Assembly: GCA_021794075.1 (NCBI GenBank)
Contig: JAJYRM010000030.1
Location: 1-39,052 of the forward strand
Origin: Bacteroidota bacterium
GTDB lineage: Bacteria > Bacteroidota > Ignavibacteria > Kryptoniales > JAKASW01
Direction: 5' to 3'
Length of the DNA stretch: 39,052 nt
The notes below the pieces were generated by a model. That model was given only the letters and a program-made list of their open reading frames with translations, searched no databases and was not told where the DNA came from. How positions within the stretch are numbered: position 1 is the first letter of the stretch; every line of letters begins with the position of its first letter. Shown here in pieces: positions 2,713 to 17,939 of the stretch. The position numbers were made by a program, and so were the translations under genes.

Positions 2713-3126
2713 ATGAGAGCCAATTCAAAGGCTGAAATACTCAAGATCCTCGGCGATCAGACCCGGCTTCGGGTCACCCATCTCCTCGCGGCGTCGAAGA
2801 AGTCCCTGTGTGTCTGCGAGATAGTGGATGCGCTGAAACTCCCGCAATACCAGGTGTCGAAGGGTCTTGTCATGCTGCGCCGGGCCGGCCTGGTGGAAGT
2901 CGACAGAAACGGGACCTGGGGGTATTATCATCCGAATATGACCGACGATGCGAACGCCGCACTTTTCGATTTCGTGAAAGATTATTGCGTGGGGGAGCCG
3001 TTCGATTCGGACATTGACGCACTGACTGGAAGACTCAAGCTTCGCGAGGGAGATAAATGCGTCGTGGGTTTCGTACCCGAAAAGAAATTGCGCAATCTCA
3101 TGCGGAAGAAGGGAATTGCCGCTTGA
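2713..3126 (+). CDS. arsR: ArsR-family arsenite-responsive repressor
   Basis: A 137-residue winged-helix repressor. The N-terminal part (ILGDQTRLRVTHLLA) is typical of the family, and the recognition region LPQYQVSKGLVMLRRAGLV is followed by a wing (DRNGTWGYYHP). Cys33 and Cys35 in SLCVCEIV match the ELCVCDL metal site of classical ArsR; Cys92 and Cys116 might add further thiol ligands. The ATG has no usable Shine-Dalgarno sequence: only AGGC touches it, and the operator fills the space in front, so translation probably starts on a very short leader. Its stop codon TGA overlaps the TTG start of arsC. It should repress the arsR-arsC-acr3 operon and release it on arsenite binding. Confidence 0.92.
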   Translation: MRANSKAEILKILGDQTRLRVTHLLAASKKSLCVCEIVDALKLPQYQVSKGLVMLRRAGLVEVDRNGTWGYYHPNMTDDANAALFDFVKDYCVGEPFDSDIDALTGRLKLREGDKCVVGFVPEKKLRNLMRKKGIAA

Positions 3127-3590
3127 CGGGCCAGAGAATCGCAACGAGGATACTAGTTCTCTGCACGGGCAATTCCTGCCGCTCCCAGATGGCGGAAGCC
3201 TTTCTCAAATCCTTCGCGGATGATCTCCAGGTTTATTCAGCGGGCACTGCCCCTGCCAGTAAGGTTCATCCCAAGGCTGTCCTGGTAATGAAAGAAGTCG
3301 GAATAGATATTTCCAACAATAAGACAAAAACTGTCCAGGAATTTCTGTCGCAGTCTTTCGATTATGTCATAACGGTCTGCGACAACGCAAGGGAAACGTG
3401 TCCGTTCTTCACGGGGAATGTTGAACACCGCTTGCACGTCGGATTTGAAGATCCCGCGGAAGCTGCAGGCTCGGAGGACGAAGTCATTTCGACTTTCCGC
3501 GCTGTCCGGGACGACATCAGAAAGACTTTTTACGAGTTCTATCTCAAAGAGATTAAAGAAAAGAAAATTAAGTATGGCGACAGTCTCTAA
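3123..3590 (+). CDS. arsC: Arsenate reductase, thioredoxin-coupled low-molecular-weight phosphatase type
   Basis: This cytosolic enzyme reduces arsenate to arsenite for export by the next gene. With a TTG start at 3123 it has 155 residues. Cys14 starts the P-loop CTGNSCRS, and Cys86 and Cys93 lie in VCDNARETC. The spacing 14/86/93 equals the Cys10/82/89 triad of pI258-type ArsC, in which the disulfide relay ends at thioredoxin. Asp110 in GFEDP is the expected general acid region. I prefer the TTG because it overlaps the arsR stop codon as TTGA, has AAGAAGGGAA upstream and places the P-loop near the N terminus. An ATG at 3057 would add 22 residues not expected in the family and overlap arsR by 70 bases. 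Confidence 0.93.
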
Positions 3591-4629
3591 AAGATTATCT
3601 TTCTTCGACAGATATCTTACGTTATGGATCTTCATGACCATGTTCCTCGGCGTCGCGGCAGGCTCCGTCGTGCCTCGCATCGCTTCTTTCTGGGATTCGA
3701 TGAGCAGTGGCGCGACGAACATACCTATCGCGGTCGGGCTCATTCTTATGATGTACCCGCCCCTCGCCAAAGTAAAATATGAGGAACTTGGCAAAGTATT
3801 CAGCAACGGAAAGATTTTGTCGCTGTCTCTCATACAAAACTGGGTCGTAGGCCCGGTGGTGATGTTCGTCCTGGCGATAGTTTTCCTTCACAACTATCCG
3901 ACATACATGGCTGGCCTTATCCTCATCGGTCTAGCGAGGTGCATTGCGATGGTCATAGTCTGGAACGAGCTGGCGCAGGGGAACACCGAATACGCCGCGG
4001 GGCTCGTCGCTTTCAACTCGGTCTTCCAGGTCCTGTTCTATTCTCTATACGCGTACGTCTTCATAACCATACTACCGAGGTGGCTCGGACTTAGTTCATT
4101 CAAGGTTGATATCACCATCGACCAAATCGCCGAGAGCGTCTTCTTCTACCTTGGAGTGCCATTCATTGCCGGAATAACGACGAGATTCCTGCTGATAAAA
4201 GGGAAAGGAAGGGAATGGTATGATAAACAGTTTGTTCCCAGAATAAGCCCGATCACTCCAGCCGCTCTGCTCTTCACGATATTTGTCATGTTCTCATTGA
4301 AGGGGAAACTCATTTTGCAGATCCCGCTTGATGTCGTGAGGATCGCGATCCCTCTTGCCTTTTATTTCATAATAATGTTCTTCGTCTCGTTCTGGATGGG
4401 GAAGCGGGTCGGCGCGGATTACGGCAAGACGACGACACTTTCTTTCACTGCAGCGAGCAACAACTTTGAGCTCGCTATCGCTGTGGCCATTGCTGTCTTC
4501 GGGATAAATTCGGGGGAAGCATTCGCGTCCGTTATCGGTCCGCTTGTAGAAGTTCCGGTGCTGATCGGCCTGGTGAACGTGGCGTTACGGTTCAAGAAGA
4601 GGTACTTTCCCGAAGTCTCGGAAGCGTGA
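3574..4629 (+). CDS. acr3: ACR3-family arsenite efflux permease
   Basis: This inner-membrane carrier exports As(OH)3, driven by the proton motive force. With the ATG at 3574 it has 351 residues, the usual ACR3 length, and about ten hydrophobic helices. Cys123 in GLARCIAMV and Glu299 in [11 protein letters not shown] match the two residues known to be essential in the family, and the segment [14 protein letters not shown] is also characteristic. The frame is open further upstream to 3418, but that part overlaps arsC and is not part of the protein family. The start lies 17 bases inside arsC, so translation is likely coupled. It is the last gene of the operon, followed by a strong hairpin. Confidence 0.94.
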
Positions 4630-5726: not shown

Positions 5727-6202
5727 TCTAAGTCTTCCTTTCTTTGAGATTGGTCGGAGACCTGTTCTTATTCCATCTTCATCAAAGATAAAAATCTTGA
5801 AACAATTTTTGCCACTGGCAAAATCTTAAAGACAAGGCTATTCGTCTTCATGACGCTTAACTCGTTCTAATAATTGTCCGCTCGTTGAGATAATTACGCC
5901 GGAAGTAGTCGGCCTCGACCCGAAAAAAGCACTGCCTTTCTCCGTCCAAACACTTTCGGAGGTGCGAAGCTTTCGTCGATTCCGTTCAGTTTTCTTCGAC
6001 TCGCAGTCATATGCGGTCGCACTATCTAGAGACCTCCTGCCACAATTGGGGAAAAACGCGCAATGACTGCCAGAGGATATAAGTCGGCTCGGCCGAATTC
6101 GCAAAATAATTGGGAATCTTCAATCTGCTTTCCGGCATCATATTTGTGAAACTATTAGGCGTGATTCTTGTTATTCGAAAGGACAACTGGGTATTCAGGA
6201 GT
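5727..6202. other. Intergenic region without convincing gene
   Basis: This stretch lies upstream of both the minus-strand dehydrogenase and the plus-strand small Cys protein, so it should contain divergent promoters. On the minus strand TATCTTTG (plus-strand 5783-5790) matches the TAnnTTTG -7 element of Bacteroidota, but no well-spaced -33 element is visible. A 17-bp palindrome lies at 5807-5823. A minus-strand open frame at 5838-6104 has no family-like features and no good ribosome site, so I do not count it as a gene. Confidence 0.4.
5807..5823. promoter_or_regulatory. 17-bp perfect palindrome upstream of the dehydrogenase
   Basis: TTTTGCCA and TGGCAAAA flank a single C. The palindrome is 81-97 bases upstream of the dehydrogenase start and just upstream (on the minus strand) of the TATCTTTG element. 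The compact symmetric form suggests a repressor or activator site, though a short transcription-ending hairpin cannot be excluded. The site has the same 8-1-8 form as the palindrome at 20582-20598 but a different sequence. Confidence 0.35.
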
Positions 6203-6634
6203 ATGAGTAAGACGGTTAAGTATCTGAATCTGTTGGTCTTATTGACCTTCCTGGTCGGACAGGTTCAGTATGCTTATTCTGTCTATTTCTGCACGATGCT
6301 TCAAGCGCCTGTGCCCGCGCCCACAATGAAAATGAGCTCGGCCGAAGTTGGCTGGGGCAACACTTGCGACCATTGCTCGTCTGCCACACAGACGCTTGAG
6401 GGAGAGCAACTTGCCCAAGTCGATTGTGTGCGGTTAATTACCTCGCAAAAGAGTACGCTCGGTAGTTTTACTGAATCACAGAAGTTGATCCAGCATATTA
6501 TGTCGGTGTCGTTTGTGGGCAATCGCCTCCTAGCATTGATCGAGAAACCGTTGTCGACGACCTGCTCCCTAATACCTACTACATCTTCTCCTCCTTCAGA
6601 TATATCAATCTTCGATAGTAATCTTCGCATTTAA
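6203..6634 (+). CDS. Small signal-anchored Cys protein of the copper island (YFCT/CxxC family, copy A)
   Basis: I do not recognise a named family. The 143-residue product starts MSKTVKYLNLLVLLTFLVGQ, a signal peptide or membrane anchor, followed by VQYAYSVYFCTMLQ and later NTCDHCSS, a CxxC motif. The tail is Ser/Thr/Pro-rich and ends ISIFDSNLRI. The minus-strand gene at 17502-17939 is a divergent paralogue with the same order: anchor, LVGQVQY, YFCT, CxxC, Pro-rich region and a short terminal strand (NLNFRF). ATG 6203 is chosen because it matches the paralogue start; AGGAG lies very close (1 base away). The frame is open upstream to a TTG at 6110, which would bury the anchor. The position directly before cusC-like genes suggests a periplasmic metal-binding role, which is an inference. 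Confidence 0.7.
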   Translation: MSKTVKYLNLLVLLTFLVGQVQYAYSVYFCTMLQAPVPAPTMKMSSAEVGWGNTCDHCSSATQTLEGEQLAQVDCVRLITSQKSTLGSFTESQKLIQHIMSVSFVGNRLLALIEKPLSTTCSLIPTTSSPPSDISIFDSNLRI

Positions 6635-6801
6635 GTCCTTTCCTAACTGATAAGTCCTCTTGGACAAAGGTCCAGGCGCCGGATGTATTTTACTCCTTCA
6701 GCTACCTCTTTTGTCATCGGTGCTTGTCAATTTTTTCTTCTGATGTTCTCATTGTGCAGTGAATTGTCGCTGCATTGCAAAGGAAAATGGAAAGGCGAAG
6801 T

Positions 6802-8097
6802 ATGTTGTTTAAGAATTTTAAATTCTCAATTCTGAATATTGAACTGGGGCTGGTGATTGTTCTGCTGTTTGTGGTCAATGCGTTCGGGCAGTCTCAGCTG
6901 GATAGTCTCATCACCACATCGGTGCGCAACAATCCTGAAATCCAGATGGCCCGCTATCAATCGATGGCGGCACAGGCGAAGATAGGTCCGACAGGAACTC
7001 TCCCGGATCCACAACTCAGGGTGGGTGCCATGAACTTCCCGACTGATTTCAATTTCACGTCAGAGACCATGACCATGGTGCCGGACTTCACTTTAATGGA
7101 AATGTTCCCGTGGTTCGGGAAGTTATCTGCAGCGGCTGATGTGGAGAAATACGGCTATGAATCTTCGGCGGACAGACTGGCGAGTGTCACTCTTGACGTC
7201 GTGACCAATCTGAAAAAAGTCTATGGCCAGACATACAGCGTCGAAAAATCGATACGGTACCTTGAATACAAAAAGCGACTTCTGCAAAGCGTGGTGAAGG
7301 TTGCCGAACAGCTTTTCGCAGTTGGCCAGGTTCCGCAGCAGGACGTCTTCCGTGCCACCGCCGAGCTTACAATGGTACAGTCGGGCATCATCACCATGCA
7401 GGGCAAGCTGTCCGATTTGGAGGCGAGGCTCGGAGCCATACTCGGAAGGAATGCTCCGTACAGTATAAATGTAGATACGCTATCGCTGCCGAAGCTCGAA
7501 TCGCTCTCTACACTGGAGGCTCAACTACAGAGCGAAAACCCCGACCTGAGACAGGTAAAGAACATCGAGCGCGCAGCCGTGGCAAAGCAGGCGTATGCCA
7601 AGAAGGCCGCGATCCCGGATATCACCGCCGGCGTTTCGTACGGATTTCGCGGCGCTCTTATGCCGACCGGCATGAAAGCACCTAATCTCATGAGCGTTGA
7701 GGTAGGAGTAAGCCTTCCAATCTTTTTCGGGGACCGCCAGCAAAAGATAATCGATGAGGCGAATTTTACGCAGCATGCCGCAAACGAACAATATGGCGCG
7801 GTCGCGCTCGCGCTGGGCAGCCGGCTTCGCTCGACATATGCCGATGCGGAAGCGCAGGCGAAGCTTATCCCGCTTTATTCCAAGGAATTGATCCCGCAGT
7901 ATGAGGCGACCTACAACTCTTCGCTGTCATCCTACTCGGTCGGCAAAACGACATTCGCGATGCTGATCGATAATCTTACAACATTGATAAATGCGAAAAT
8001 AGAATTTGCGAAAATAGAATCGGAATATTTCTCCGCTTCGGCCGAGATTTCGAACCTTGTCGGAGAAGGCTCAGAAGATTATAGAGGTGTCAAATGA
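6802..8097 (+). CDS. cusC: TolC-family outer-membrane channel of a Cus-type exporter
   Basis: This is the outer-membrane exit duct of a tripartite metal pump. The product has about 431 residues, with a hydrophobic signal segment (LGLVIVLLFVVNAFGQ) and then two TolC repeats of long helices. The first repeat starts LDSLITTSVRNNPEIQMAR, and the second is centred on the region from ENPDLRQVKNIERAAVAKQ. The motif PDFTLMEMFPWFGKLSA resembles heavy-metal efflux TolC proteins. ATG 6802 has GGAAAGGCG upstream; ATG 6787 with AAAGGA is an alternative start. The stop codon overlaps the ATG of the adaptor gene as ATGA, so channel, adaptor and pump form one operon. Assignment to the Cus branch rests on the neighbours. 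Confidence 0.92.
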   Translation: MLFKNFKFSILNIELGLVIVLLFVVNAFGQSQLDSLITTSVRNNPEIQMARYQSMAAQAKIGPTGTLPDPQLRVGAMNFPTDFNFTSETMTMVPDFTLMEMFPWFGKLSAAADVEKYGYESSADRLASVTLDVVTNLKKVYGQTYSVEKSIRYLEYKKRLLQSVVKVAEQLFAVGQVPQQDVFRATAELTMVQSGIITMQGKLSDLEARLGAILGRNAPYSINVDTLSLPKLESLSTLEAQLQSENPDLRQVKNIERAAVAKQAYAKKAAIPDITAGVSYGFRGALMPTGMKAPNLMSVEVGVSLPIFFGDRQQKIIDEANFTQHAANEQYGAVALALGSRLRSTYADAEAQAKLIPLYSKELIPQYEATYNSSLSSYSVGKTTFAMLIDNLTTLINAKIEFAKIESEYFSASAEISNLVGEGSEDYRGVK

Positions 8098-9629
8098 GGA
8101 AAGCAATTTTAGCAGTCATACCGTTGATCGTGGCAGCGCTTATCCTGGCCGGATGCGGCAAATCAGGAGATGGAAGCAGTAGTTCAAACGGCGATTCAGC
8201 CAAAGTCGCCGACAATTCCAGCGGCCGGAAAATTCTTTATTGGTACGATCCGATGACGCCGACGATCCATTTCAATCATCCAGGTAAATCTCCGACGATG
8301 GATATGGATCTCGTTCCGATGTATGCGGACGGTGGTGAAAACAACCCGAACGTGATAAGAATCAATCCGGCGATGGTTCAGAACATCGGCGTGGTCACCG
8401 CGCCAGTCGAACGCAGAAGACTTACGCGGACGATCAATACTTACGGCGTGGTGATGCCGGATGAGAAGAGCATCAGCGACATAAACACACGTGTCAGCGG
8501 ATGGATTGACAAGCTTTATTTCGACTACACCGGCATGGAAGTGCGTAAAGCCCAGCCGATGGCCGTGATTTACAGTCCTGAGCTTATTGCAGCCGAGCAG
8601 GAATTCCTGCAATCTGTGAGCTTCGCCGATGTCAGCGGGAACACCGTCACTTCGTCAAACAGTCTCATCAGCAGCGCACGTGAACGCCTCCGATTCTTCG
8701 GGATGAGCGACAGTGAAATCAACGAGCTGCAGAAAACGGGTAAGGTCATCGACCGCGTCACAATCCATTCACCGAGCGATGGCGTAATTCTGGAGAAGGA
8801 TGTACTCGACGGCCAGAAAATTTCCGAAGGGCAGACTCTTTTCAGGGTTGCAAACCTGTATCACGTCTGGATTCTGGCAGATATTTTCAAAATCGACATG
8901 CCGTTCCTGAAGCTCGGCTCACCTGCGACCGTGACTTATAACAGCGGTGAGACTTATCATGGTACTGTCGACTTCGTCTACCCGGAAGTTGATGTCACCG
9001 CGAGGAGTGTCAAGGTCCGGATTCCTCTTCATAATCCCGGGATGACGATGAAAGTTGGACAGTATGTCGACGTCGCAATTCACTCTCCTGTCAGTTACAA
9101 CGCAATTGCCGTTCCTTCCGAGGCAGTCATCAACACAGGTTTGAGAAAGGTCGTCGCAGTCGCACTCGGTGGAGGAAGATTTGAAATACAACAGGTAGAC
9201 CTCGGCGCTTACGCGGGTGGGTATTATGAGGTGCTCGCCGGACTCAACGTTGGAGATACCGTAGTGATTTCGGGGCAATTCCTGATCGATTCAGACGCGA
9301 ACCTGAAATCGGCAGGTACCGCGATGGCCGGAATGAAAATGGGAAACGGAGAAAGGGAAGCTGGGGGGCAAGGAGAGATGGAGAATACGCGGGGTATGGA
9401 TTTGAATGGCAGAAAGTCAGAGGTCGGAGATCGGAAGTCAGAGAAGATGGAAATGCCAGGCATGGACATGCACGGCAAGGAGACGCCCCGTCCCGCACCG
9501 AACTCAGAACGACGCCTGCGTGCCGAAACGCACTCCGGCGTGCAGCCACGAACCAAGAACAACTCAACTGAACACATGGACATGCCCGGCATGAATATGT
9601 CGCACGACTCAAGCGGACAGGAGCACTGA
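8094..9629 (+). CDS. cusB: RND periplasmic adaptor lipoprotein with N-terminal metal-binding domain and Met-rich tail
   Basis: A 511-residue membrane-fusion protein. A lipobox (LILAGC, Cys21) anchors it. Residues about 48-77 hold a heavy-metal-binding domain with the typical YWYDPMTP and MDMDLVPMY motifs. The following barrel-sandwich, helical hairpin and beta domains (for example GWIDKLYFDYTGMEVRKAQ) match CusB-like adaptors. The last roughly 105 residues are unusual: MAGMKM, GMDL, MEMPGMDMHG and HMDMPGMNMSHD are separated by low-complexity stretches encoded by purine-rich or tandem DNA that looks like intergenic repeat sequence. Met/His motifs suggest Cu(I)/Ag(I) capture. The start overlaps the cusC stop, and the stop is one base before cusA. 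Confidence 0.93.
   Translation: MRKAILAVIPLIVAALILAGCGKSGDGSSSSNGDSAKVADNSSGRKILYWYDPMTPTIHFNHPGKSPTMDMDLVPMYADGGENNPNVIRINPAMVQNIGVVTAPVERRRLTRTINTYGVVMPDEKSISDINTRVSGWIDKLYFDYTGMEVRKAQPMAVIYSPELIAAEQEFLQSVSFADVSGNTVTSSNSLISSARERLRFFGMSDSEINELQKTGKVIDRVTIHSPSDGVILEKDVLDGQKISEGQTLFRVANLYHVWILADIFKIDMPFLKLGSPATVTYNSGETYHGTVDFVYPEVDVTARSVKVRIPLHNPGMTMKVGQYVDVAIHSPVSYNAIAVPSEAVINTGLRKVVAVALGGGRFEIQQVDLGAYAGGYYEVLAGLNVGDTVVISGQFLIDSDANLKSAGTAMAGMKMGNGEREAGGQGEMENTRGMDLNGRKSEVGDRKSEKMEMPGMDMHGKETPRPAPNSERRLRAETHSGVQPRTKNNSTEHMDMPGMNMSHDSSGQEH
9411..9446 (+). repeat. Degenerate GTCAGAG/TCGGAG repeat inside the adaptor gene
   Basis: Imperfect short repeats (GTCAGAG, GTCGGAG, TCGGAAGTCAGAG) lie inside the coding region for the Met-rich tail and encode the hydrophilic spacer RKSEVGDRKSEK. 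Purine-rich DNA at 9346-9390 and an ACCAAGAACAA-type stretch near 9549 look alike in style. Such short runs are more usual between genes than in coding DNA. Confidence 0.5.
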
Positions 9630-9630
9630 C

Positions 9631-12600
9631 ATGCTGGCGAAAATAATTGAATGGTCTATCAAGAACAGGTTCATCGTAATTGTACTTCTGATCTTCGTGC
9701 TCGCGGCAGGGTATTTCTCGCTAACGACGAGTCCCGTCGACGCGATACCGGATCTCAGCGACGTCGAGGTTATCGTTTACACCGAATATCCAGGCCAGTC
9801 GCCGACGGTCGTGCAGGACCAGGTGACTTACCCTCTGACCTCTTCGCTCATCTCACTCCCAAAGGCTAAAGTGGTACGCGGATATTCCTACTTCGGTTTC
9901 TCGCTGGTTTACATAATATTCAAGAGCGGAACCGATCTTTACTGGGCCCGGAGCAGGGTTCTGGAATATCTGAACTACGCCGCAAACCGTCTTCCTCCCG
10001 GAGTGACACCTTCACTCGGCCCCGACGCGACTCCTGTCGGATGGGTATACGAGTATGCTTTGAAGTCGAATAAGCGGAGTCTCGGAGATCTGCGAACGAT
10101 TCAGGATTATTATCTCAAATACGGTCTCGAATCGGTTCCCGGTGTCGCGGAAGTAGCGAGCGTCGGCGGTTATGTAAAGGAATGGCAGGCCACGCTCGAT
10201 CCGCGTAAGCTCCTCGCTTACCACATCTCGCCGATGCAGGTGATGAACGCCATAAAGCAGAGCAACAACGACGTCGGCGGAGACGTGATAGATCACTCCG
10301 GATACGAGCTGATGGTAAGAGGACTCGGTTACATCAAGACAATACGTGACATGAAGGACATACCGCTGGGGGTTTCGAAAGGCGGGAAGTTCTATCCGCT
10401 AGCCCAGGGCGCAAGGAGCACAGCGCAGAGCGTGGGCGGTAGTGGTGGGTCGATGGGAGGTAGTTCTGCCGGCGCAGGCATGTCTGGCGGCTCCGGAAAT
10501 TCGCAATTCGCAATTCGCAATCCGCAATCAAGTTTCTCCACAGGTACTCCGGTTCTTCTGGGCGATGTTGCAAACGTCCAGATTGTTGCCGCTGCACGCC
10601 GGGGAGTAGCAGACCTAAACGGGAAAGGAGACGTGGTCGCCGGAATTGTGGAAATGCGATACGGTGAAAACGCACTCAAGGTAATCGAGGGAGTCAAGCA
10701 GAAGCTCGCGGAGCTGAAGTCCGGACTTCCGCCGGATGTTCAGATCGTTCCCGTTTACGACCGCGCGCACCTTATCCACCGGGCCATCAACACGCTCGAA
10801 GATAAACTCATCGAGGAGTCGATAATCGTCGCGCTGGTCTGCCTCCTCTTCTTGTTCCATTTCAGGAGCGGGTTCGTCGCGATATTCACGTTGCCGACGG
10901 CAATTCTCATGGCGTTCATAGTCATGCGATGGCAGGGTCTCAACGCTAACATAATGTCGCTTGGAGGGATAGCCGTCGCGATTGGCGCCATGGTTGACTC
11001 CGCGATTATCATGATAGAGAACGCGCATAAGCACATAGAAGCAGATGGTGGCAAGACCGACCGCTGGAAACTGATCACTGAGTCGTCTAAGGAAGTCGGA
11101 CCTTCGCTCTTCTACTCTCTCCTCGTGATAACCGTTTCCTTCATTCCGGTCTTTGCCTTGACAGGTCAGTCGGGCCGGATGTTCAAGCCCCTTGCCTTCA
11201 CCAAGACTTACTCGATGGCTGCTGCCGCACTTCTCGGCATCACCGTCGTCCCAATACTCATGGGGTATTTCATTCGAGGAAAGATACCTCCGGAGGAAAA
11301 GAACCCGATCAACAGGATATTGATGCGGATCTACACGCCTGTTCTTGACTTCGTGCTGAAGTTCAGGTGGTACGTCCTGGGAGCGGTTGTTGTTGTACTT
11401 GGAATTACAATCTATCCCTATATGAAACTGGGATCTGAGTTTATGCCTCCGCTTTGGGAAGGAACATTCCTTTACATGCCGTCGACGTTCCCGGGCATTT
11501 CAGTTACACAGGCCCGGCAGACTCTCGAGATGACGGATAAGATCATAAAGAAATTCCCCGAAGTGTCGACGGTCTTCGGAAAAGCCGGAAGGGCGAACAC
11601 GCCTCTTGATCCAGCCGGGTTCGATATGTTCGAGACAACGGTCAACCTGAAGCCTCAATCCCAGTGGCCCAAAGGGATGACTCCTAAGAAACTGGAGACG
11701 GCTCTTAACGACGCGTTGCAGGTCCCGGGTCTATCGAACGTCTGGACCATGCCGATCAAAAACCGCGTCGACATGACGAGCACGGGAATAAAAAGCCAGA
11801 TAGGCATAAAGATCTTCGGACCCAACCTCGACTCTCTCCAAACAATAGGCGAAAGGATCGAGGCGCTTCTGCAGAAACTTCCGCAGACGCAGAGCGCGTT
11901 TGCCGAACGCGTCGAGTACGGCAACTATGTCGACTTCAATATAGACAGGACCGAAGCCGCGAGGTACGATCTATCGGTACAGGATATCGAAGATGTGATA
12001 CAGAGCGCTATCGGCGGCATGCCTGTTGGCAAGATCGTGTCAGGAATTGAACGTTTTCCGATAGACATCCGATATGGATTGGAGCAGCGCGACACTCCTG
12101 AACAGCTCGAGCGTGTGCTCGTCCCGACACCGACGGGCGCTCAGATTCCGCTCGGCGACGTGGCGAAGATGACGATTCACCACGGCCCGATGTTCATCCG
12201 GACTGAAGGTGCGATCCCGACGATCTACGTATTCGTCGATGCCAGCACATCGAACATCGGCGGTTACGTCGCTAAGGCGAAGAAATACCTCGACAATCAC
12301 TTGACTCTACCGAACGGATACTATATTACCTGGAGCGGACAGTTCGAGTTCATGCAGGAAGCCGCGAAGACGCTCAGGATGGTTATACCCGCGACACTGC
12401 TACTAATCCTTCTGATTATTTATCTAAATACCAGATCGCCGATCAAGACCGCGATTGTTCTCCTTGCATTGCCGTTCTCGCTTGTCGGCTCGTTCTGGTA
12501 CCTCTACATTCTTCACTACGATATGAGCGTCGCCGTATGGGTCGGCTTGATCGCGCTTGCCGGATTGAGCGCCGAGACAGGTGTTGTCATGCTTCTCTAT

Positions 12601-12912
12601 CTTGACATCGCGTACGACAAGATGAAGGGAGAGGGGAGAATGTTCACGCTGGCGCATTTGAAAGAGGCGATTCATGAAGGAGCCGTGCGGAGAGTGCGAC
12701 CGAAGATAATGACCGCTGTTGCGATACTTGCTGGTCTGCTGCCCATCATGTGGAGCACCGGAACGGGAGCGGACGTGATGAAGAGGATTGCTGCCCCGAT
12801 GGTGGGCGGCGTCATTACCAGTGTGTTGATGGAGTTCGCTATTTACCCGATAATATATTATCTGTGGAAAGGCCGCGAGTTGAAGCAAGAGATCCCGGCA
12901 GGGGGTGAATAG
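9631..12912 (+). CDS. cusA: CusA-type heavy-metal RND efflux pump
   Basis: A 1093-residue inner-membrane proton/metal antiporter that drives Cu(I)/Ag(I) export through the adaptor and channel. Twelve helices and two large periplasmic loops are visible. Asp456 in GAMVDSAIIMIENAHKH matches the CusA proton-relay helix; the CzcA branch has a different form. Met616 (LYMPSTFPG), Met666 (GFDMFETT) and Met715 (NRVDMTSTG) reproduce the CusA methionine triad with the same spacing (50 and 49 residues). In the first periplasmic loop about 45 extra residues, rich in Gly, Ser and Met, lie between GGKFYPLAQ and TPVLLGDVA; part of this insert is encoded by a 7-base tandem repeat. The later numbering shift relative to E. 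coli CusA fits this insert. Confidence 0.96.
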   Translation: MLAKIIEWSIKNRFIVIVLLIFVLAAGYFSLTTSPVDAIPDLSDVEVIVYTEYPGQSPTVVQDQVTYPLTSSLISLPKAKVVRGYSYFGFSLVYIIFKSGTDLYWARSRVLEYLNYAANRLPPGVTPSLGPDATPVGWVYEYALKSNKRSLGDLRTIQDYYLKYGLESVPGVAEVASVGGYVKEWQATLDPRKLLAYHISPMQVMNAIKQSNNDVGGDVIDHSGYELMVRGLGYIKTIRDMKDIPLGVSKGGKFYPLAQGARSTAQSVGGSGGSMGGSSAGAGMSGGSGNSQFAIRNPQSSFSTGTPVLLGDVANVQIVAAARRGVADLNGKGDVVAGIVEMRYGENALKVIEGVKQKLAELKSGLPPDVQIVPVYDRAHLIHRAINTLEDKLIEESIIVALVCLLFLFHFRSGFVAIFTLPTAILMAFIVMRWQGLNANIMSLGGIAVAIGAMVDSAIIMIENAHKHIEADGGKTDRWKLITESSKEVGPSLFYSLLVITVSFIPVFALTGQSGRMFKPLAFTKTYSMAAAALLGITVVPILMGYFIRGKIPPEEKNPINRILMRIYTPVLDFVLKFRWYVLGAVVVVLGITIYPYMKLGSEFMPPLWEGTFLYMPSTFPGISVTQARQTLEMTDKIIKKFPEVSTVFGKAGRANTPLDPAGFDMFETTVNLKPQSQWPKGMTPKKLETALNDALQVPGLSNVWTMPIKNRVDMTSTGIKSQIGIKIFGPNLDSLQTIGERIEALLQKLPQTQSAFAERVEYGNYVDFNIDRTEAARYDLSVQDIEDVIQSAIGGMPVGKIVSGIERFPIDIRYGLEQRDTPEQLERVLVPTPTGAQIPLGDVAKMTIHHGPMFIRTEGAIPTIYVFVDASTSNIGGYVAKAKKYLDNHLTLPNGYYITWSGQFEFMQEAAKTLRMVIPATLLLILLIIYLNTRSPIKTAIVLLALPFSLVGSFWYLYILHYDMSVAVWVGLIALAGLSAETGVVMLLYLDIAYDKMKGEGRMFTLAHLKEAIHEGAVRRVRPKIMTAVAILAGLLPIMWSTGTGADVMKRIAAPMVGGVITSVLMEFAIYPIIYYLWKGRELKQEIPAGGE
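10498..10529 (+). repeat. 7-base tandem repeat inside cusA
   Basis: About four and a half copies of AATTCGC (the fourth is AATCCGC) run in tandem within the cusA insert. Because the unit is not a multiple of three, each copy is read in a new frame, giving NSQFAIRNPQ. The DNA just upstream encodes a Gly/Ser/Met-rich linker. The reading frame stays open on both sides. Confidence 0.85.
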
Positions 12913-14226: not shown

Positions 14227-16560
14227 CTAGTACGTGTACGCTATTCCTCCTCCCACTCCATAGTCTGAATCGTAATTGGCCGACAGCGAAAAGTATCTTG
14301 TCAATATGTAACTCATCCCTATGGCGTATTCGTTATCGGTGTTCCACATGCCGCTTAGTCTTAGACGCGAAGTCAACGCCAGATCGCTCCTGCTCAGCTG
14401 AAATCTCAGGTGCCCAGTATCATCAACTCGTAAGTCTGTCTGGATGAACAGTGGCAGGAGGTAGCGCACGCCTACTACTCCAACCGTTCGATTGTTTATC
14501 CGATATTCCTCAGTGCCGGGAACTATGTGGGGGAGCCTGTCAAGCTTTCTGAAATCCACGCCAACGTATGCTTCCAGGAATTGCGTATTACCGAAGAGCC
14601 GGCCGAAGCGGGCTTCCCCCTGGTAATCACCATGATAGTCGGCGGCGCCCGTAAACTGAAAAACATAACTCCGGCTTACGTCCCTTATTGTCGGGAAGAT
14701 GCCGTTGGACTGCGCCGCGGCATTGAGGGAAAAATACCAACTGTTATCCATGCTCACGAATTTCTGATAAGCGTCTTTTACAGTATCAACCTCAGCGTTG
14801 GGTGGGGCAGCCGCTCCGGAAGGAGAACCTGCGGGTGCCACGTTGAATACTCTCGCCATGCCGCTGTTCATGTGGTAAAGAATATGGCAGTGGTAGAACC
14901 AGTCTCCGGTATGCGGTTCGTTGAACTCGATTGTATCGGTCTCCATCGGCATCACGTCGAGCACATTCTTCATCGGATCGTAATCTCCGTGCCCGTTGAG
15001 AATCCTGAATGACGTTCCGTGGAGGTGCATCGGGTGGCGCATCATCGTTGAGTTGTGAATGATGATCACCACGTTTTCTCTCTTGCGCATCCTTATCCTG
15101 TGTGCTTGAGAAAGTGTCTTGTTGTTTATCGACCATTGATACCTGCGCATGTTTCCGGTAAGATCGAAATGCAGAGTGTCGGTTGGCCAATCCGGCAGAG
15201 TTGTTTTCACGGGCGACTTCAGCATGCCGTAATTGAGAGTCACGATACCACCCGGCGAATTGTCGCCCATGTCCATGTTCATACTCCTTCCGCCGGTATC
15301 TGATCCGGCCGCGGCGGACATGCCGCTCGTCCCAGACATTTCGTTCATACCCGACATCCCGCTCATTCCCGACATTCCGTTCATGCTGGACATACCGTCC
15401 ATTTTCCCCTTTGCGTGTTCACTTTTTGCCCTCGGGTGATTGTCCACATTAGGGTACATGGGACTAAACACATCGTATTCCTGGTCTGACATCTTCATAT
15501 TTCCCATGCCTCCCGATGAATACATCATATCGTTCATCGCCTGCATCCCCTTGAAGTAGTTGAGCTTCCCAAGTTTCGGAGCGTATACATTCTCTCCGCT
15601 GCCGAGCCAGAGCGATGCACTGCCCATGCGGTCTTCAGCGGTCGCAAGGAATTCATAGCTCTTGTTTCTTGGCACAGTCACGATAACGTCATAAGTTTCG
15701 CCTACGCCTATTATCATCCTGTCGACCTTGACCGGCACGTCGTCACCGCCGTCGCTGGCAATAACGGTCAGCTTGCCTCCTGCGAACTGCAGCCAGAAAT
15801 ACGTCGATGAGGAAGCATTTATGATGCGAAGTCTTACTTGGTCTCCTGCTCTGAGCCGTGGCAGGCGCCGACTCTCTCTTCCGTTCAGCAGGTACGCATT
15901 GTAGTGAACGTCGCTCACGCCCATCGCCGGCATCCTGTGCCATTCCTGTATGAACTTTGCGCCAAAGTATCCATTTATCAGCGCACCTCCCCAGCTCTGC
16001 ACGGATCCATTTTTTATGTTGTACCAATCGTTCCCGCTTTTGAGTGTGCGCATGACCTGATCGGGACTTTCGTTTGTCCAGTCGCTTAGTACGACGTCAT
16101 ATTGCGGGATCGTATCGGTAGGATGTCTTCTGTGGAGTATCAGTGCTCCATACTCTCCTATCTGTTCCTGGAAGCCCATATGAGAATGATACCAGTAAGT
16201 ACCATGCTGCACTATTGGAAACTTATACAAATGCGTTGTGTGGGGAAGGATAGGGGCGGTCGTCAGGTACGGAACTCCGTCCTGCGTGTTGGGAAGTATG
16301 AGCCCGTGCCAGTGAATCGATGTCGGCACGTTCATCATGTTGTGCACGTAAATTTCAGCTGTGTCCCCCTCCGTGAAATTCAATGTCGGCCCGGGTATGT
16401 GTCCGTTAGCCGCGATGGCTCTGACAGTCTTTCCCGTAAAGTTGACTGTAGTGTCGCTCACGTAGAGGTCATACCGCACAACTCTCTGCGCATACGCATT
16501 GGCAGCTGTAACCAGAATGAGGAATGTCGCGTATCTAGTGAGAATTCTTTTGTTGTTCAT
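14227..16560 (-). CDS. Multicopper oxidase fused to a C-terminal outer-membrane-barrel-like domain
   Basis: The 777-residue product has a signal peptide (LTRYATFLILVTAANAYAQ) and a CopA/laccase-type multicopper oxidase. Copper ligands are HWHG (His83, His85), YWYHSHMG (His126, His128), HPMHLHG (about 508) and HCHILYHMNSGM (about 557). Residues about 386-414 form an MSGM-type Met-rich segment like those that bind Cu(I) in CueO and CopA. After the oxidase the protein continues for about 190 residues as alternating amphipathic strands (for example EAYVGVDFRKL, FQLSRSDLALTSRLRLSG, YFSLSANYDSDYGVG) ending in GGGIAYTY, which looks like a CopB-type outer-membrane barrel. ATG 16560 precedes the signal peptide; ATG 16584 is possible. 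Likely role is Cu(I) oxidation at the outer membrane. Confidence 0.93.
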   Translation of the reverse strand: MNNKRILTRYATFLILVTAANAYAQRVVRYDLYVSDTTVNFTGKTVRAIAANGHIPGPTLNFTEGDTAEIYVHNMMNVPTSIHWHGLILPNTQDGVPYLTTAPILPHTTHLYKFPIVQHGTYWYHSHMGFQEQIGEYGALILHRRHPTDTIPQYDVVLSDWTNESPDQVMRTLKSGNDWYNIKNGSVQSWGGALINGYFGAKFIQEWHRMPAMGVSDVHYNAYLLNGRESRRLPRLRAGDQVRLRIINASSSTYFWLQFAGGKLTVIASDGGDDVPVKVDRMIIGVGETYDVIVTVPRNKSYEFLATAEDRMGSASLWLGSGENVYAPKLGKLNYFKGMQAMNDMMYSSGGMGNMKMSDQEYDVFSPMYPNVDNHPRAKSEHAKGKMDGMSSMNGMSGMSGMSGMNEMSGTSGMSAAAGSDTGGRSMNMDMGDNSPGGIVTLNYGMLKSPVKTTLPDWPTDTLHFDLTGNMRRYQWSINNKTLSQAHRIRMRKRENVVIIIHNSTMMRHPMHLHGTSFRILNGHGDYDPMKNVLDVMPMETDTIEFNEPHTGDWFYHCHILYHMNSGMARVFNVAPAGSPSGAAAPPNAEVDTVKDAYQKFVSMDNSWYFSLNAAAQSNGIFPTIRDVSRSYVFQFTGAADYHGDYQGEARFGRLFGNTQFLEAYVGVDFRKLDRLPHIVPGTEEYRINNRTVGVVGVRYLLPLFIQTDLRVDDTGHLRFQLSRSDLALTSRLRLSGMWNTDNEYAIGMSYILTRYFSLSANYDSDYGVGGGIAYTY
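15317..15403 (-). repeat. Met-Ser-Gly coding repeats in the multicopper oxidase
   Basis: Imperfect 9-to-12-base units encode repeated MSGM, MNGM and MNEM motifs in the interdomain segment of the oxidase. About nine methionines fall within 29 residues. Such segments bind Cu(I) in related oxidases; length variation between strains would be expected. Confidence 0.8.
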
Positions 16561-16594
16561 TTCCTGTAAGGCCTCTCTCGGCATGGTGGAAGCG

Positions 16595-16732: not shown

Positions 16733-17302
16733 CTAGTGTCCATGTTCGTCCATCTTCATGTTCATTTTCATGCTCTTCATGCTTTCGTTCGCCTTCTCCA
16801 TCGCCTTGTATTGTGCAGGAGTCATGTTCTTCATCTTCTCCAGGAAGGCAACCATGGCCCAAATCTTATCGTCGGTGTGAGTCTTTGCGAAACCAGGCAT
16901 GGCTGTGCTCTTTATGCCGTTCTTTATCACCCAGAAAAGATTTTGCGGGGGCATCTCTTTCGCCGACCGTGCGAGGTTCGGAGCCTGCGGGTATATTCCC
17001 ATGCCGGCTTCTGATTTCTCTAATCCGGGGCCGGCGTGACAGGTGACGCACATTTCGTTGTAATGGTCAAAGCCCATCGCGATCAACGAGCTGTCCGTCA
17101 AAGAAGGTACCTTGATCCCGTTTGCGTGATACTTGACGGAATTATCGCTGGTCGAGCTGAAGATCCAGCGGAGAAACCCGGGGTCGGGAGAGAGCGTGGA
17201 GACGTTGTACAGCGCGCCGGAAAGTCCGGTCCCGACAACGATTATGAATACGAGTAATTCGGCGATCAGGGTCGCGGCGATTGTCGCTATGATCCTTTTC
17301 AT
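16733..17302 (-). CDS. Membrane-anchored monohaem cytochrome c with Met/His-rich tail
   Basis: A 189-residue protein with an N-terminal anchor (residues about 4-30). The haem motif CVTCH gives Cys85, Cys88 and His89, and Met135 in TAMPGFAK is the likely sixth ligand, so this is a class I cytochrome c domain facing the periplasm. The C-terminal 30 residues contain SMKSMKMNMKMDEHGH, a Met/His-rich tail that could bind copper. The start is secured by GGAGGAATT directly before the ATG. It precedes the multicopper oxidase on the same strand with a 172-base gap holding a repeat. It could pass electrons to or from that enzyme; this is inference from context. Confidence 0.92.
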   Translation of the reverse strand: MKRIIATIAATLIAELLVFIIVVGTGLSGALYNVSTLSPDPGFLRWIFSSTSDNSVKYHANGIKVPSLTDSSLIAMGFDHYNEMCVTCHAGPGLEKSEAGMGIYPQAPNLARSAKEMPPQNLFWVIKNGIKSTAMPGFAKTHTDDKIWAMVAFLEKMKNMTPAQYKAMEKANESMKSMKMNMKMDEHGH

Positions 17303-17501: not shown

Positions 17502-17939
17502 TCAGAAGCGGAAATTTAGGTTTGTTATGTGTAATGGTAAGGGAGGGGGTGCCGCGGTGCTCAGCAGGCGATAACCGTCGGCTGAGTTTGGATTGAAAGC
17601 AATTTGACGGACGGGATGGAAAAACCCGCCCGTCTCAAAGTGGCCCGGATACTTATCGCTACTCGTGAAATTGCTTACGACACTCTTCGAATATGAATTC
17701 ATTTGAATGCAGTTGGGAGTGGTCAAGCTCAGTCCGTGCCGCTCCGGAATCATGCCTCGGCATTCATTGCAGATTGTCGAGCCTGACGTAATTTCAGATG
17801 AATGCGTGTCAATCCTCGGCCTGCCAACGACCGCGTGCAGATCGGTGCAGAAGTACGTTGTATAGACATACTGAACCTGCCCGACGAGCAGGGCTAGAGC
17901 GATTAGTGCGTGCGTATATTTGAGTGCAACTTTTATCAA
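17502..17939 (-). CDS. Small signal-anchored Cys protein of the copper island (YFCT/CxxC family, copy B)
   Basis: A paralogue of the gene at 6203-6634. The 145-residue product starts with TTG at 17939 (an in-frame stop lies ten codons upstream) and begins MIKVALKYTHALIALALLVG. Then come QVQYVYTTYFCTDLHAVVG, the CxxC motif STICNECRG, a His-containing middle part (YPGHFETGGFFHPVRQ) and a Pro-rich tail ending ITNLNFRF. Conserved with copy A are the anchor, GQVQY, YFCT and CxxC. No function is known to me. It lies upstream of the cytochrome and oxidase genes on the same strand, as copy A lies upstream of cusC, so each copy may be the first gene of a copper operon. The ribosome site is weak. Confidence 0.72.
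   Translation of the reverse strand: MIKVALKYTHALIALALLVGQVQYVYTTYFCTDLHAVVGRPRIDTHSSEITSGSTICNECRGMIPERHGLSLTTPNCIQMNSYSKSVVSNFTSSDKYPGHFETGGFFHPVRQIAFNPNSADGYRLLSTAAPPPLPLHITNLNFRF

Follow-up and report, generated by a model that had tools for sequence, protein, structure and literature searches.

A predicted natural fusion of a copper-resistance multicopper oxidase with a PcoB-like outer-membrane barrel in Bacteroidota

Can a multicopper oxidase of the CopA type and an outer-membrane barrel be carried by one polypeptide chain, and what would such a chain mean for the way the two partners work together? The question is raised by a gene in the 39,052-nucleotide stretch of Bacteroidota DNA analyzed here (the window), in which a minus-strand open frame spans 14227-16584 with its stop codon at 14227-14229. 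The likely start codon is the ATG at 16560, giving the N-terminus MNNKRILTRYATFLILVTAANAYA with a Sec-like signal, and the resulting reading frame of 777 residues indeed carries both an oxidase and a tail, as the first-pass annotation of this DNA had observed. In our judgement it is highly probable that the gene naturally joins a multicopper oxidase of the CopA/PcoA type to an outer-membrane barrel of the PcoB fold, including the export, location and oxidation steps proposed below. The earlier reading is supported in part: its structural proposal held (a predicted barrel, closest to PcoB), a CopB-type channel is putative, as are its proposals that Cu(I) oxidation is fixed at the outer membrane and that the Met-rich segment captures copper, and the arrangement is not unusual. 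The gene and its parts are as follows.

14227..16560, minus strand: entire fusion gene, oxidase plus predicted outer-membrane barrel (777 codons and the stop)
16489..16560, minus strand: Sec-like signal peptide without a twin arginine, residues 1-24 (sequence reading, compared with 21 unfused CopA signals)
14833..16461, minus strand: multicopper oxidase domains, residues 34-576 (Pfam PF07732, PF00394, PF07731; NCBIfam TIGR01480)
15226..15570, minus strand: Met-rich loop separating the second and third oxidase domains, residues 331-445, 20 Met (composition)
14737..14832, minus strand: linker containing a single predicted helix (594-605), residues 577-608 (AlphaFold models)
14230..14736, minus strand: predicted 12-stranded outer-membrane beta-barrel, residues 609-777, PcoB-like fold (AlphaFold, Foldseek, VIA-align; CopB profile link)

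The oxidase part is complete. Pfam Cu-oxidase_3, Cu-oxidase and Cu-oxidase_2 cover residues 34-576, all above cut-off, and the best NCBIfam match is the CopA subfamily TIGR01480 with 376.6 bits, under its cut-off of 478.95. All four copper-ligand blocks that had been noticed on first reading are present and invariant among 13 relatives, namely HWHG (H83, H85), WYHSH (H125, H127), HPMHLHG (H509, H512, H514) and HCHILYHMNSGM (H557, C558, H559, H563, M568), and with 12 of 12 ligands kept in this alignment the type 1 and trinuclear copper sites are complete. A full-length relative in locus L024 is 87% identical. The Met-rich segment holds 20 Met in about 104 residues, its length differs between relatives and its Met count varies from 10 to 22 in those aligned. 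It is probably disordered, as model confidence is low there, and by analogy with other CopA proteins it is likely to be a capture site for Cu(I). In four loci (L026, L028, L030 and L032) an extra N-terminal heavy-metal binding domain (HMBD, PF19335) stands ahead of the oxidase, making a three-part protein.

Structure prediction of the tail returned a barrel and not a globular fold. The AlphaFold model built from an alignment of 11 tails shows 12 antiparallel strands between residues 609 and 776 with a mean pLDDT of 80.1 and about 88 across most of the barrel, preceded by the linker helix. The same strands are given by the full-length model, which served for the strand count only, being weak in the oxidase part (mean pLDDT 53.7). 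About 190 residues had originally been assigned to alternating amphipathic strands ending in an aromatic residue; the barrel holds from near residue 609, residues 577-608 being the linker with its helix. The pattern itself was confirmed in the family of 52 tails, where 11 of the 12 predicted strands have one face that exceeds the other in hydrophobicity by at least some 1.8 hydropathy units; the C-terminal residue is the invariant Tyr777. Among solved chains PcoB (7PGE) ranks first for the barrel in Foldseek (E 6e-4), and in VIA-align PcoB reaches a Z of 15.5 with 154 residues aligned at an rmsd of 3.0, level with OMPLA (Z 15.8). The catalytic site of OMPLA lies in the middle of its barrel and needs a His. 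The high Z, together with an SNG motif, had raised the idea of OMPLA-like catalysis in the tail, which was rejected: the motif belongs to the first hairpin (residues 618-620), and the required His is absent from the tail. Pfam phospholipase A1 gave no match in the fusion protein at E up to 1; we take the likeness as one of fold only. The PcoB structure paper likewise reports that PcoB resembles OMPLA (PMC9210255).

At the level of sequence the link to PcoB and CopB is looser. The tail has no match in Pfam or NCBIfam scans, and the CopB profile PF05275, proposed as a check in the first reading, did not detect it in any of the 11 proteins scanned, nor in searches of its own genome and family; a profile search against PDB sequences also gave no real match. 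A profile-profile comparison of 52 tails with 22 CopBs reached a score of 30.5 across 161 columns, whereas 100 controls with shuffled columns averaged 14.2 and peaked at 20.6 and the reversed control gave 16.3, which weakly supports kinship between tail and CopB. With the whole protein as tblastn query, the match crosses separate, adjacent copA and then copB genes in Halomonas sp. THAF12 and Ruegeria sp. YS9. The pore of PcoB holds the conserved acid pairs D97-E207 and E130-E223, but the two of them that the alignments place, E207 and E223, are apparently not kept in the fused barrel: E223 aligns gap-free with Asn740 (in 98% of the fused family) and E207 with Arg724 (98% of the fused family) or with residue 725, the register being uncertain by one residue and neither choice being acidic in the window's protein. 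The description of the tail as CopB-type stands for its predicted fold, a 12-stranded barrel with PcoB closest, and fails for the PF05275 match. Since these acidic residues are seemingly lost, copper conduction by the barrel is putative, and the barrel might be a mere anchor that keeps the oxidase in place at the outer membrane without conducting copper. We regard this as a serious possibility, though not the favored one: the apparent loss of the acids and the Arg, Gln and Asn residues that the barrel conserves speak for it, but the strong conservation of many barrel residues and a fold closest to that of PcoB suggest that the barrel does more.

How the fused protein reaches its place can be approached through its signal. 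A twin-arginine motif (such as SRRTFL) is found in 20 of 21 unfused oxidases adjoining copB but in none of 23 fused ones, where the sole pattern match (L034) precedes the start codon, a comparison that is confounded by lineage, as fused and unfused forms occur largely in different families. This difference, predicted Tat signals on the unfused oxidases and none on the fused ones, is new here. Since TatC was present in all 46 fusion genomes tested, absence of the Tat machinery is not the reason for it. Tat carries folded proteins, and an outer-membrane barrel must remain unfolded until its insertion by BAM. The explanation that we offer is that the barrel is incompatible with folded Tat transport, so that an exported copper enzyme may switch its route when it is tied to a barrel unable to pass Tat. 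Sec would then export the fusion protein unfolded and BAM would insert the barrel, while the oxidase would fold and receive copper in the periplasm and remain attached to the barrel, next to its periplasmic opening. The N-terminus of the barrel, and hence the oxidase, is most likely periplasmic because of the even number of strands, as both ends of such a barrel face the periplasm in PcoB (PMC9210255). There the oxidase, in a 1:1 ratio with the barrel, would turn Cu(I), presumably supplied by the Met-rich loop, into Cu(II), serving copper resistance beside a Cus efflux system. In Caulobacter the disordered N-terminal domain of PcoB stabilises PcoA, and docking of the two has been proposed (PMC12509749); in the fusion the oxidase itself takes the place of this domain. 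A bolder version sees a self-contained oxidase-channel, in which the fusion forced the switch from Tat to Sec and with it metallation outside the cytoplasm, and Cu(II) is delivered directly into the barrel; in its extreme form, the barrel exposes the oxidase at the cell surface or couples it to electron transfer. This bolder version we consider doubtful.

Display on the cell surface could also be reached in the manner of an autotransporter, with the oxidase passed through the barrel. An N-terminal enzyme, a linker helix and a C-terminal 12-stranded barrel are indeed the type Va layout, and VIA-align matches the barrel to BrkA, EstA, NalP and EspP with Z values of 10 to 13. However, PcoB, OMPLA and NanC score above them, no Pfam autotransporter barrel matches at E up to 1, the barrel has a length of just 169 residues, and gene order and relatedness indicate CopA plus CopB, making this explanation very unlikely.

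The preferred reading, a copper-resistance fusion, can be compared with the genes around it, two groups of which are given here.

16733..17302, minus strand: c-type cytochrome with Met/His-rich end, directly upstream of the fusion (Pfam PF13442)
6775..12912, plus strand: CusC-, CusB- and CusA-like copper efflux genes (Pfam PF02321, PF16576 with HMBD, PF00873)

The cytochrome is paired with the fusion in all six same-genus loci checked as well (L003, L004, L005, L011, L013 and L024) and is not so paired in the 17 relatives examined from other groups; it is a probable operon partner of the fusion gene within this genus. The CusA-like pump (9631-12912) carries a Gly/Ser-rich in-frame insert at about residues 270-310 that ends in FAIRNPQSSF and has the look of an inserted repeat, and the CusB-like protein has a low-complexity tail resembling it. 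The copper genes are flanked by two small secreted-looking proteins (6110-6634 and 17502-17939) with cysteine pairs, a common VGQVQY near the start and no Pfam match, and by eye the window also holds an arsenic cassette (2713-4629) of an ArsR-like regulator, an arsenate reductase and an ACR3-type transporter. That the fusion serves metal or electron exchange, such as oxidation of Fe(II) or Mn(II), and not copper defence might be argued from the cytochrome c gene, from Pelobium manganitolerans among the relatives and from the role in Fe(II) oxidation proposed for PcoAB as a porin and oxidase (PMC5566968). We find this highly improbable, as the neighbours here and in relatives are copper genes (Cus, Cu P-type ATPase, DUF305, four-helix copper-binding protein) and the cytochrome is not conserved beyond the genus.

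To what extent is the fusion a feature of this genome only? A search for related loci returned 13, with both parts present in all 12 that are not cut by a contig end. In a plasmid collection the tail match lies beneath an annotated multicopper oxidase gene in 24 of 25 records and in the 25th continues through an unannotated oxidase copy, the hosts including Hymenobacter, Pontibacter, Spirosoma, Ornithobacterium and the fusobacterium Ilyobacter. Among 296 genomes of the phylum the tail was found in 50, and 51 of 56 near-complete tails (matches covering at least 150 tail positions) sit in one open frame of at least 700 aa, the other five being broken or truncated, one of them a pseudogene; an intact stand-alone tail gene was not seen in these genomes. 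A stop codon or frameshift between the parts was looked for and found in no intact relative. Apparent split genes were traced to a contig end (G082), a frameshift in oxidase domain 2 (G116), a frameshift plus contig end (G285), a stop and frameshift (G296) and, for a second copy in the window's genome, an insertion sequence. In this second copy an insertion that bears a transposase interrupts the linker near residue 604, shortly ahead of the barrel, and the halves of the gene lie on two contigs (G000:C233, locus L013, around 3145-3363, and G000:C127, locus L022). The premise that CopA and CopB are normally separate holds for most studied bacteria, but in several Bacteroidota families the fusion is the common form. 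An artefact of sequencing or assembly joining two genes, conceivable in a genome of 240 contigs, is already refuted by the same fusion in complete plasmids and dozens of independent genomes.

Unfused CopB (PF05275) occurs in 22 genomes of an equal draw of 296 from the phylum, and in 19 of 20 such loci of the phylum it is immediately preceded by an oxidase frame in the same orientation. Going by the genome identifiers listed, no genome has both the tail and a PF05275 CopB; for independent genomes, which these are not, zero overlap would have a probability of 0.014. When 44 oxidase domains are placed on a tree, fused and unfused proteins form the two sides of one branch with a support of 100/100, and this clean split fits a single fusion event.

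The direction in which PcoB moves copper is disputed, import (PMC9210255) standing against efflux with docking of PcoA (PMC12509749), and so is the contact between PcoA and PcoB. The fusion offers a natural test of how the partners work together, and as it keeps them in operon order it is strong indirect evidence that they act together; it also provides both as one complex of fixed 1:1 stoichiometry for purification, structure determination and reconstitution. In a literature search with subscription papers mostly outside its reach we found no account of a CopA-CopB fusion as such or under a name, and NCBI annotates the fusion proteins only as 'multicopper oxidase domain-containing protein'. 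One paper from 2024 describes G2EDV6 of Bizionia argentinensis as a multicopper oxidase whose C-terminal residues 611-809 are porin-like with some similarity to PcoB (PMC11213822), a single sentence that comes without structure, distribution, tree or signal-peptide comparison.

Compared with known systems, the fusion shares with PcoA and CopA (TIGR01480) three cupredoxin domains, all copper ligands and the Met-rich loop, but it scores below the cut-off of this family, has a Sec-like instead of a Tat signal, carries a barrel and forms a separate group in the tree. Its tail resembles PcoB and CopB (PF05275, 7PGE) as a predicted 12-stranded barrel with an aromatic end, in profile similarity and in its place after the oxidase, but it is not a separate protein, does not match PF05275 and is without the His/Met-rich disordered N-terminal domain. 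Cyc2 also joins a redox protein and an outer-membrane barrel in one chain, although it uses haem and not copper and is described as an N-terminal cytochrome that plugs a porin (PMC5566968).
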